64,000 nt of DNA from Clostridia bacterium (GTDB lineage: Bacteria > Bacillota > Clostridia > TANB77 > CAG-465), in the NCBI GenBank assembly GCA_017626395.1, contig JAGAIU010000068.1, positions 1-64,000 on the forward strand, written 5' to 3'. A program made the position numbers and the translations under genes. Shown piece by piece: positions 8,595-13,318 of the stretch; the first letter of the stretch is position 1, and the number at the start of each line of letters is the position of its first letter. Under the pieces are notes generated by a model. That model had not been told where the DNA came from and did not search any database. It was given only the letters and a program-made list of their open reading frames with translations.

Positions 8595-10022
8595 CTAACT
8601 TATTCCTATATTATTTTGTGTAGGTTCTTCTACCTTTTCTACTATTTCTTGCCCATCTTTATCTACTTGCTTTTCTAGAATATCTGATTGTGTATCTTTT
8701 AAGTATTGTTCTGCATCCATAACCGGATCTGTAAAATAATCTGGACTTGAATATTCTTCTTTTTCTTTATTTTCAGAAGCTACAACAAATTCAATTATAT
8801 TTTTATTAAAAAATTCTTTTTCTATTTCGTATATATCGTATTTTACTATAATATTATATACTTCATCTTTTCCTTCTTCTATTTTAGCAGTTATTTGAGC
8901 TAAATATCTTTTTGATGGATTTGAATATGATATATTTTTTAATTTATTTACAACATCTGTATATAAATCTTTAGCAGCTTCCTTTAAGCCATCACTATAT
9001 TCTGTTCCAATTACCAAATTACATGTATCTATAAATAAATTATCTTCCACAAGACCATAAGAATCTGTTTCTATAAATTTTTTAGTAGTATATGCATATG
9101 GTATTGCTTTAAATGTTACATCAAACATCTTCGTATCATTTGCATATCTCTTATATATTGCAACTTTGTCTTTATTTTCATATAGACTTATCTTTTCTAT
9201 AGTTTCATCTTCAAGTGGAATATATACCAATTTTGGTGAAATACTGTATTGGAAATTTTCCCCATTATATTTTTCTAAAGCTTTACTACTTAAAACATCT
9301 TCAATTTTAGTTTCAATTGTAAATACTTGTTTTATATCAAAAGGTTCAAATTTATTTAAGTCAATATTTATTCCTTTATATTCATAAGTTACATTTCCTT
9401 CTACATCACAAAATTCTTTACAATACATTGTAGATAGTACATTATTAAAAATATATACATCTGTACAGTTATATATATGATCATAAAGTACATTTTTATC
9501 TTGAATATTTGCTTCTGAATATAAATTATTTGCTTCTTGCTCTAGAATCTTATTAATTTTATCTTGAAGACTTTTATCTTTTAATCCATCTACTTTATAA
9601 TATGAAACATCTATCTTTTTACCTTCTAAGTTTCTTGAATAATCATAGAAAAAACCTATCTGATGAAGATATTCTTTTGTAACTGTATAATTAAGTCCTT
9701 CATAATAATATTTTTCACCCACAACAAGATGACTTTCGCTATTACTATCTCCCTCTTTACCTTGTTCTTCTTCGTCTTTAGTTACAACACTATATATTAC
9801 AACAGACATTATTACTGCCAAAACACATATTAAGCCAATTATAATCTTCTTATCTATTAGTTTTTTTGTGTTTTCAGTAACTTTTTCTTTATTTACTACT
9901 TCTTTTTTTGGTGTTTCTATTTCTTCTTCTAGTACAATTTCTTCTCCTGCAATGACACTTCTTCTTTTTGATGATACATTAGTATCTATCTCTTTAGTTT
10001 GATCATTCTCTGAATTATACAT
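8595..10022 (-). CDS. Single-pass membrane protein with large extracytoplasmic domain, function unknown
   Basis: 475 residues. A charged cytoplasmic part (1-74) is followed by one membrane helix (about 75-98, IIIGLICVLAVIMSVVIYSV) and an extracytoplasmic domain of about 370 residues. The stretch INIDLNKFEPFDIKQVF around 225-245 vaguely resembles the RsiV/DUF3298 type of outer domain, but I cannot confirm that. The start follows GGGAGGTAAACT. The gene is alone between its own promoter and a terminator. The topology fits an envelope sensor or a structural envelope protein. Confidence 0.8.
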   Translation of the reverse strand: MYNSENDQTKEIDTNVSSKRRSVIAGEEIVLEEEIETPKKEVVNKEKVTENTKKLIDKKIIIGLICVLAVIMSVVIYSVVTKDEEEQGKEGDSNSESHLVVGEKYYYEGLNYTVTKEYLHQIGFFYDYSRNLEGKKIDVSYYKVDGLKDKSLQDKINKILEQEANNLYSEANIQDKNVLYDHIYNCTDVYIFNNVLSTMYCKEFCDVEGNVTYEYKGINIDLNKFEPFDIKQVFTIETKIEDVLSSKALEKYNGENFQYSISPKLVYIPLEDETIEKISLYENKDKVAIYKRYANDTKMFDVTFKAIPYAYTTKKFIETDSYGLVEDNLFIDTCNLVIGTEYSDGLKEAAKDLYTDVVNKLKNISYSNPSKRYLAQITAKIEEGKDEVYNIIVKYDIYEIEKEFFNKNIIEFVVASENKEKEEYSSPDYFTDPVMDAEQYLKDTQSDILEKQVDKDGQEIVEKVEEPTQNNIGIS

Positions 10023-10138: not shown

Positions 10139-10215
10139 TCGAAGCACAAAAGATTGTGGCTTCCAAAAATTTGGAGGCCAGACGGTCTCCATTATAATTA
10201 TTAAAAAGGAGGAAA
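10139..10215 (+). promoter_or_regulatory. Structured 5' leader with mutually exclusive hairpins
   Basis: Three GC-rich helices can form in an otherwise very AT-rich region. A pairs 10141-10149 with 10154-10163 (one bulge). B pairs 10158-10167 with 10170-10179 (one G-U). C pairs 10173-10179 with 10184-10190 (one G-U). A and B share bases, as do B and C, so the RNA can be A+C or B. It ends in a strong AAGGAGG. This looks like an attenuator or switch, but no known class is recognised. Confidence 0.55.
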
Positions 10216-10222
10216 AAAGATT

Positions 10223-11014
10223 ATGAATTTTAATTGTAATCAAAAAGAAATCAAACAGGAGGTTTGTAATCCTAAAAAAGGAAAAACTATTAAACAAACA
10301 AATTTATGTGACAGATATGTATTACTAGAATCACCTAAAGGAAAAGTGACTTACAAAGTAAGCAAACAAATATCTGATGTATTTGAAAGTAGAAACTATC
10401 AAGGATTTTTCAGATTGTTAGGCTTAATTGAAAATCAATTAGATGAGCACTTATCTTTTACTGTTGAGTTAGACTATATAACATTGGAAGCATTTAAACG
10501 TTGTTGCGAACAAGACAAACGTGGATATATTAATTTAAAAAATAGAATTGGAACCAGAATCTTTGAATTATTAAACGACTTATCTATAAGAAAGACATCT
10601 ATAAGTTCAGAAGAAATTCTAGATAAATACTTATGCAATTCAGACTTAGATGCTTTAAAAGAATATTACGAAAAATATCATGACATAGTAATGGATTGTT
10701 TTAGTAAAGACTACTCTACATTATGTTTATATGATATTATATATAATGGAAGTACAACCGCTCAATTCTTAGACAAACTACATGTTTCTATCAAAGATGA
10801 AGACGAATGCATAATAAAAAAAGACTTTGCATGTAGATTAATGATTGAGTATTTAACTGAAATGTCAGCCCATGCTAGTGAAAAGACTCGCGAAGAGCTT
10901 TCATATCAAATGTCAGTAATAAATAAAAACTTTGATAATCTTGACTGCCATACATTATCTACCATTTCAAACGAAATGAGATTAATTATTGACAGAGTTT
11001 ACAATTTAATATAA
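10223..11014 (+). CDS. Hypothetical cytoplasmic protein (263 aa)
   Basis: No family recognised. The product is 263 residues, charged and largely helical, with no signal peptide or membrane segment. The first 30 residues are Lys/Asn-rich with two Cys, and four more Cys occur in the body (CCEQ at about 93-94, LCN, DCF). It starts at an ATG after AAGGAGG. It is monocistronic, with its own promoter, a bistable leader and a perfect terminator. The leader implies control at the RNA level. Confidence 0.85.
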   Translation: MNFNCNQKEIKQEVCNPKKGKTIKQTNLCDRYVLLESPKGKVTYKVSKQISDVFESRNYQGFFRLLGLIENQLDEHLSFTVELDYITLEAFKRCCEQDKRGYINLKNRIGTRIFELLNDLSIRKTSISSEEILDKYLCNSDLDALKEYYEKYHDIVMDCFSKDYSTLCLYDIIYNGSTTAQFLDKLHVSIKDEDECIIKKDFACRLMIEYLTEMSAHASEKTREELSYQMSVINKNFDNLDCHTLSTISNEMRLIIDRVYNLI

Positions 11015-11130: not shown

Positions 11131-11517
11131 ATGAAAAATAATGTAATGTATTTTGGTTATGGCAAAGAAAATTTTGGCTATGACAAGGAGCTAGGAAACA
11201 GCCTAGAAGTAAATTTTAATAAAGTTGAAGGTGCAGGAATTGCATTAATTAAAGGAAAACATATAGATGTCTTCCCTCACCAATTAAACTTAAAAATCAC
11301 TAATAACAGTGATAATAAAACTATGGTAAGAATTGAAAAGAAATTTTATAATGATGTAAAAACAGGATTTCACCTTATCTTACCTAAGTCTGATGAATGC
11401 ACAACAGTTTCTTTTGATGGTAAAGAACAAAAAGAAATTAAAGAACTAGTTGTTGCAGTACTTCATGAAGATAATTTAGGAATAGATTCTACTTCTATTT
11501 CATTACATATTAATTAA
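11131..11517 (+). CDS. Hypothetical protein (128 aa)
   Basis: No family recognised. A 128-residue soluble protein with predicted beta-rich character (alternating LNLKITNNS, MVRIEKKFY, TSISLHIN strands), no Cys-rich or membrane segment. The ATG follows AAAGGAAG. It has its own consensus promoter and a perfect terminator, so strong constitutive expression is inferred. The immunoglobulin-like strand pattern suggests a small beta-sandwich, but this is a guess. Confidence 0.85.
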   Translation: MKNNVMYFGYGKENFGYDKELGNSLEVNFNKVEGAGIALIKGKHIDVFPHQLNLKITNNSDNKTMVRIEKKFYNDVKTGFHLILPKSDECTTVSFDGKEQKEIKELVVAVLHEDNLGIDSTSISLHIN

Positions 11518-11572: not shown

Positions 11573-11605
11573 TAAAAAAACTCCACCGTTTCTGTAACGA
11601 TGGAG
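11573..11605 (-). terminator. Terminator of the free-standing RNA
   Basis: CTCCA-C-CGTT / AACG-A-TGGAG stem (11581-11605), five-base loop, then seven U on the minus strand. Confidence 0.88.
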
Positions 11606-11816
11606 AAAATTGAGAAGAGTAGTAAAAGTAAGAACTCTTAAAATTATTAAAATAGAAGGATGGATCACGAGCGTTATATGATCCTTTTTTCTAAATATGT
11701 AAGGTTACCCTTACTTTAAGTTTCTCTCCCCTCTGCACTTGGGAAATAACTTATTTAATTAAATAACTTTATGTGTTCTCGATAAAAAATCTTTTTTCGT
11801 CCGTACTTTTAACTAC
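11574..11816 (-). ncRNA. Free-standing structured RNA, 6S RNA candidate
   Basis: No ORF lies here, yet the minus strand has a good promoter (11823-11851), a predicted start at 11816 and a strong terminator. The first 18 nt (11816-11799) pair with 11619-11635 in a long closing stem with a bulge and a mismatch. This encloses about 200 nt, as in 6S RNA. Inside are two clear hairpins: 11662-11667 with 11679-11684, and 11699-11704 with 11709-11714. No gene follows on this strand, so it is not a leader. The class is inferred from length and closing stem only; the upper part looks more branched than a classical 6S rod. Confidence 0.6.
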
Positions 11817-11822
11817 ATCATT

Positions 11823-11851
11823 ATTATAACATTATTTTTATGTAAAGTCAA
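11823..11851 (-). promoter_or_regulatory. Promoter of the free-standing RNA
   Basis: TTGACT (11846-11851), 17 bp, TATAAT (11823-11828). Seven nt downstream is the first base of the RNA's closing stem. Confidence 0.82.
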
Positions 11852-12942: not shown

Positions 12943-12971
12943 AGAAAAGAACCTACTAAAAAAGTAGGTTC
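12943..12971 (-). terminator. Hairpin after the 63-aa gene
   Basis: GAACCTAC/GTAGGTTC stem (12949-12971), followed by a short U-rich run. It matches the hairpin after the paralogue at 13297-13318. Confidence 0.75.
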
Positions 12972-12975
12972 ATAG

Positions 12976-13167
12976 CTATACAATTAGGTTTAAGAAGGTT
13001 AAGAAAAGTGTAATTATTAATACTTTTACAACTAAAACTAATGTTTCAAACATTATATTAATAATCCCATTTTTTCTTTTATCTTTAGTATTTAGATGCT
13101 TTCTTATATGAAAAACTACCAATAATAAAGTTAAAGTCAAAATAACAATTAATAATATAATATTCAT
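12976..13167 (-). CDS. Small two-helix membrane protein, copy 2 (63 aa)
   Basis: 63 residues: helix 1 (about 3-20), a basic turn (RKHLNTKDKRKN) and helix 2 (about 40-62). The start follows AAAGGAGGG. It is a paralogue of the gene at 13304-13513, with which it shares MNIILLI at the start and FLNLI near the end. Function unknown; small basic-loop hairpins of this type include holin-like proteins, toxins and membrane stress regulators, and nothing here separates these. Confidence 0.78.
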   Translation of the reverse strand: MNIILLIVILTLTLLLVVFHIRKHLNTKDKRKNGIINIMFETLVLVVKVLIITLFLTFLNLIV

Positions 13168-13223
13168 CTTCTTTCCCTCCTTTAAAATTATTTTTAGGAT
13201 TTCCTATATTGTGCTATATTTTG

Positions 13224-13253
13224 ATAATAGCATATTTTGACTAAAATAATCAA
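13224..13253 (-). promoter_or_regulatory. Putative promoter of the 63-aa gene
   Basis: TTGATT (13248-13253), 18 bp, extended -10 TGCTATTAT (-10 at 13224-13229). TGCTAT and ATAGCA form a small dyad over and after the -10, a possible operator. Confidence 0.5.
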
Positions 13254-13289
13254 CCCTTATATAAATATTGTATTTTTGTCAAAATTCAT

Positions 13290-13318
13290 AAAAAAAGGAC
13301 CTACTAAATAGTAGGTCC
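13290..13318 (-). terminator. Terminator of the 69-aa gene
   Basis: GGACCTAC/GTAGGTCC stem (13297-13318) and a U-tract. The stop codon of the gene lies inside the stem. Confidence 0.88.

Follow-up and report, generated by a model that had tools for sequence, protein, structure and literature searches.

A candidate free-standing structured RNA gene whose position and architecture outlast its sequence within a genus of gut Clostridia

Downstream of ldh in an uncultured gut Clostridia bacterium (GCA_017626395.1, contig JAGAIU010000068.1), the minus strand carries at 11574..11816 what is best read as a small RNA (sRNA) of ~242 nt, accepted by no known family and belonging to a previously undescribed, clade-restricted, fast-evolving structured family. 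The best explanation of the locus, to which we give about an even chance, is that this sRNA is independent, represents a new clade-restricted family, and acts in trans via a single-stranded linker; the layout comes from sequence comparison, and the linker would supply the mechanism. In kind it is a free-standing structured Firmicute sRNA and opens no new category; what is unusual is the rapid turnover under a fixed position and architecture. The locus contributes a family of structured sRNAs that is invisible to covariance libraries, because its sequence turns over within one genus and only position and architecture stay, and it shows that in uncultured gut Clostridia such RNAs are to be sought by synteny, not by sequence. 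All coordinates refer to the window, the whole 64,000-nt stretch of DNA that was analysed; its own genome is labelled G000.

Signals at the locus and the predicted fold

The sRNA sits between ldh, which lies upstream on the same strand, and the orphan gene p128 (11131-11517), which is convergent with it and ends 57 bases from the sRNA end. Its promoter (11823..11851, minus strand) is composed of TTGACT at 11851-11846, a 17-nt spacer, and TATAAT at 11828-11823, with a TG before the -10 box; it matches 11 of 12 consensus positions and ranks second among 38 promoter-like sites in the 3.5 kb scanned. Transcription is expected to begin 7 nt downstream of the -10 box, at 11816, and this is also the first base of a long closing stem. 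At the other end, a terminator scan of the region identified an intrinsic terminator (11574..11605, minus strand) with a 10-bp stem at 11605-11581 followed by T7, and the transcript is predicted to end in this T-run; terminator-like sites in the region number nine versus 0.5 expected in shuffles. The predicted transcript contains no ATG-initiated ORF of at least 10 codons, a search for a hidden peptide found no conserved ORF in the sRNA, and the next minus-strand gene starts at 10022, past two opposite-strand genes.

The minimum free energy of a 245-nt stretch spanning the RNA is -62.8 kcal/mol versus -41.0 +/- 4.3 in dinucleotide shuffles (z -5.1), a value that 0 of 200 shuffles reach. The predicted closing stem has 12 bp (GUAGU/ACUAC, a bulged U, then AAAAGUA/UACUUUU) and joins a 5' arm, GUAGUUAAAAGUA (11804..11816), to a 3' arm, UACUUUUACUAC (11619..11630), both on the minus strand and both assigned from the fold and from the cognate-arm test described below. 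The branched interior is predicted to include, on the same strand, a hairpin with UGCAGA in its loop (11724..11749), the hairpin GUAAGG-GUAA-CCUUAC (11699..11716), and a hairpin with the 11-nt loop UAUAACGCUCG (11662..11684). Between the closing stem and the terminator lies a 13-nt pyrimidine-rich linker, UCUUCUCAAUUUU (11606..11618, minus strand), which is the proposed pairing region; its C+U content is 0.86 versus 0.37 at the other unpaired positions, and its mean unpaired probability is 0.90.

An earlier note on this DNA, made from its letters, had described a TTGACT-N17-TATAAT promoter, a start exactly on the first base of the closing stem, internal hairpins with a strong terminator, no ORF, and no downstream gene on that strand, and its description held at each of these points. 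The sequence evidence confirms the locus as an independent RNA gene with a sigma-A-type promoter, a branched interior, and a strong terminator. The stem and the terminator are not chance features, and we infer that the sRNA is transcribed.

Counterparts in the genus and comparative evidence for the structure

BLAST with the sRNA returned two clear stretches of similarity in G003, one at each end of the RNA; most other matches covered the promoter sequence only and are not RNA homologues. Counterparts were traced via the neighbouring genes p128, p475, and ldh and not by RNA sequence, which placed RNAs of the same layout (promoter, closing stem, terminator) at the locus in 13 relatives, 12 of them well supported. 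The named carrier records are metagenome bins called uncultured Clostridia. By sequence, the copies form group A (the window copy and G003), group B (G007, G019, G012, and G010), group C (G005, G014, and record L113), and group D (G016 and G026), with G006, G004, and G025 as singletons; G020 carries the group C hairpin. In most relatives, the promoter sequence TTGACTTTACATAAA is found again at the counterpart RNA.

The gene order, a patatin-like, aminotransferase, or ldh gene, then the RNA, then p128 and p263, then p475, supports common descent of these RNAs even where their sequences fail to align. Fourteen of the 28 genus genomes give strong p475 scores, and these are the genomes that have the sRNA; the p128 alignment is too divergent for a scan of the genome collection. 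In G005 and G014, the RNA is still beside ldh, and p128 and p475 are located elsewhere. The reach of each sequence model is narrow: across 183 genomes searched, the group C hairpin model is convincing only in G005, G014, and G020, and the group B model has convincing matches only in G007, G019, and G010. Viral contigs gave 24 matches to the 17-base group C loop pattern, about the chance expectation, and 0 to the group A 3' pattern.

Fold z-scores range from -3.7 to -8.3 in 13 of the 14 copies; the exception is G025 (-1.6), whose linker is also paired and which is the weakest member of the set. For the cognate-arm test, the 22 nt at the start of each RNA were paired against the 48 nt before each terminator, so that the arms were not picked by folding. 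An RNA's own 5' and 3' arms pair at a mean of -14.6 kcal/mol versus -7.35 (about -7.4) between groups, and no foreign arm pairs as well in 11 of the 14 copies (p = 2e-8, computed ignoring relatedness). The outermost pair of the closing stem is G-C in group A, G-U in most of group B, and A-U in group C; at the sixth pair, group B has U-A and group C has A-U. The earlier note had named a lack of compensatory changes in this stem among relatives as refuting and had proposed comparative folding of the ldh-downstream region in relatives as a check; the outcome favours a structure: the outermost bases stay able to pair as G-C, G-U, or A-U from group to group, and the same layout recurs in the 13 relatives, with z at or below -3.7 in 13 of 14 copies.

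Changes inside the body follow the same pattern. Between the window copy and G003, the hairpin at 11684-11662 has compensating changes on both sides in 5 of its 7 stem pairs under an identical UAUAACGCUCG loop, and the UGCAGA loop is unchanged in G003 while its stem changes; the GUAAGG-GUAA-CCUUAC hairpin is missing from the shorter G003 copy. Group C shows rebuilding of the same kind: beneath its kept loop GGUGAGGAGAURGAUCC, the stem goes from GGGUGG/CCACCU to GUACGG/CCGUAU. The MAFFT-based consensus structure of group B is poor because G012 is without most of the interior. The sequences are few, yet the pattern is the one predicted for a selected structure and is unlike that of a chance fold. 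Taken together, sequence comparison supports the gene position, the promoter, a closing stem that runs from the 5' end to just before the linker, loops that persist while their stems are rebuilt, and the terminator.

Several features of the surrounding region deserve mention in their own right. The orphan neighbours p128, p263 (10223-11014), and p475 (8595-10022) match no Pfam or NCBIfam family over the cut-off, and matches to p128 and p475 are confined to this genus. The 5' leader of p263 (10140-10222) holds two inverted repeats, one of them terminator-like (TGGAGGCCAGACGGTCTCCA), followed by a strong Shine-Dalgarno sequence, and is possibly a second structured leader. At 12949-13318, two adjacent, similar genes for small membrane proteins have similar hairpins behind them (GAACCTACT...AGTAGGTTC and GGACCTACT...AGTAGGTCC), which looks like a tandem duplication that included the terminator. 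In many genus genomes (L005-L028), the extended promoter TTGACTTTACATAAA (window 11851-11837) also precedes a conserved protein gene (MYYDNKS..FY..QYGP); the sequence kept in the spacer of these recurring promoters suggests an operator inside it.

The linker and possible modes of action

The linker is pyrimidine-rich in 13 of the 14 copies, at 0.71-0.86 versus 0.22-0.54 at unpaired positions elsewhere in these RNAs. Directly after the stem, group A, most of group B, and G014 carry a UUCUUCU-like sequence (UCUUCUC, UCUUCUU, UUCUUCUCU, or UCUUCUUUU), and the group C linkers are mainly U. G004 lacks a pyrimidine-rich linker (0.43), and that of G025 is predicted to be inaccessible (unpaired probability 0.34).

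By its sequence signals, the RNA has what characterizes a trans-acting sRNA, namely its own promoter, an intrinsic terminator, and no ORF. In the Firmicute sRNA RoxS, C-rich single strands pair with the Shine-Dalgarno or 5' regions of mRNAs (PMC5419742), and because the linker is pyrimidine-rich and strands of this type pair with Shine-Dalgarno sequences, we rate base-pairing of the linker in trans as the likeliest mechanism, a call we regard as evenly balanced. The closed body would protect the 5' end and stabilize the RNA, and the single-stranded linker (UCUUCUC), held between body and terminator, would pair with purine-rich ribosome-binding regions of distant mRNAs and repress them, in the way that the C-rich segments of RoxS/RsaE act. 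Further contacts, or the binding of a protein, may come from the kept loops. The new RNA has no sequence relation to RoxS/RsaE, and its segment differs in being CU-rich rather than C-rich and in following a closed, branched body. The linker has no advantage over shuffled linkers in pairing with the start regions and ribosome-binding sites of ldh, p128, p263, and p475, so these neighbouring genes find no support as targets.

The main rival is an RNA that binds protein, in which the closed, branched body would serve as a scaffold or decoy, possibly for RNA polymerase in the manner of Ms1 or of a second 6S-type RNA, and the linker would be a spacer; we consider this a serious possibility on the unlikely side. 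The parts that are kept are loops of the body (UAUAACGCUCG, UGCAGA, and GGUGAGGAGAURGAUCC of group C) on stems that are rebuilt, and protein binding fits them at least as well as base-pairing does. The fast drift of the rest under fixed synteny also resembles Ms1, which is traced by synteny since its sequence diverges (PMC9130861); Ms1 is actinobacterial, has a 6S-like fold, and binds the RNA polymerase core. Against protein binding, no loop motif is common to all groups, the predicted folds are multibranched and not a rod with a central bubble, and the 6S model score is not significant. A broader version, which we find rather doubtful, would place the RNA in a novel class of structured RNAs that bind protein and possibly work alongside 6S on the machinery of transcription or translation; closing stem, branched body, and pyrimidine tail would be kept, and almost all sequence apart from a few loops would be replaced from one species of the genus to another.

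The proposed independence of the RNA has to be weighed against a cis element, either part of the ldh 3' region or a leader or attenuator of the downstream gene. The frequent position directly downstream of ldh fits such an element, as does the placement of the RNA upstream of p475 on the same strand in G016 and G026. A strong promoter of its own everywhere speaks against it, as does the aminotransferase gene that replaces ldh as the neighbour in G003 and G025; the next gene is moreover convergent in the window and most relatives, so there is nothing to lead, and we judge the cis reading improbable. Very improbable, in our view, is an AT-rich intergenic stretch that folds by chance next to an unrelated promoter and terminator: the G+C content is very low and the promoter sequence recurs at other genes of the genus, but the fold z-scores in 13 of 14 copies, the cognate-arm pairing, and the compensatory changes described above all point the other way.

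Relation to 6S RNA and other known families

The covariance-model check proposed in the earlier note yielded no family over threshold at the locus, and Rfam run on the whole window likewise brought none to threshold. On 501 bases of the locus, the best score was that of RsaOG (RF01775), at 26.7 bits of a gathering score of 50 (E 0.046), with SSRC38 on the other strand at 25.3 bits of 80. RsaOG/RsaI resembles the sRNA in having a hairpin and a pyrimidine-rich strand between helices, then a terminator; the match is sub-threshold, and we take it as chance because none appears in the counterparts up to E 1 (12 loci, most with the RNA or a counterpart). The raiA motif/ModT resembles the sRNA in being a structured clostridial RNA that stands alone between a SigA promoter and a terminator of its own (PMC11706538), but it has no match (RF03072) up to E 1 in 36 genomes of this family. 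SRP RNA (RF01854) was rejected; the genome has its own copy at G000:C61:69992-70066 (60 bits).

The earlier note had offered "a diverged 6S or a new class". Of this, the 6S part falls, and support remains for a free-standing structured RNA that Rfam lacks. The Rfam 6S model (RF00013, E up to 1) matches in 159 of 183 relatives and 0 times in the window's own genome; it has no match at the sRNA locus and none at the 12 loci just mentioned up to E 1. We extracted sub-threshold Rfam matches of the genus, which share the core AUAUGAAAAUCUACAA...GGGAAUC...GUGUUGAA...GAGAAUCCUAAU...CCCACCUU...GGGUUUUAUC, and built from it a covariance model, R1. With R1, a single strong copy turns up in 27 of 28 genus genomes, only G006 being without a match, and the true 6S of the window's own genome is located at G000:C15:16402-16523 (= L111 1003-1124 minus; 119 bits, E 4.8e-22). 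G003 holds both an R1 6S copy and the sRNA. At the sRNA locus and its counterparts, the best R1 value is E 1.2, compared with 1.3e-23 on the true 6S.

The sRNA is therefore not 6S, since the R1 6S sits on another contig and R1 gives nothing significant here, although a separate 6S gene, taken alone, leaves room for a second 6S-type copy. The two RNAs are alike in length (~200 nt for 6S), closing stem, housekeeping-type promoter, and free-standing gene; the sRNA differs in lacking the 6S core (GGGAAUC...CCUAA...CCCACCU), in predicted minimum-energy folds that are multibranched inside the closing stem in place of a rod with a central open bubble, and in its model score. Given that this genome keeps its true 6S at another site and that 27 of the 28 genus genomes have one, descent of the sRNA from 6S by divergence is barely credible.

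A by-product of this comparison is the genus-specific 6S model itself, which recovers 6S in 27 of 28 genomes; with the Rfam model, the window's own genome had yielded none. Near the 6S gene of G017, we also noted the end of a group II intron (L047 4019-4087).
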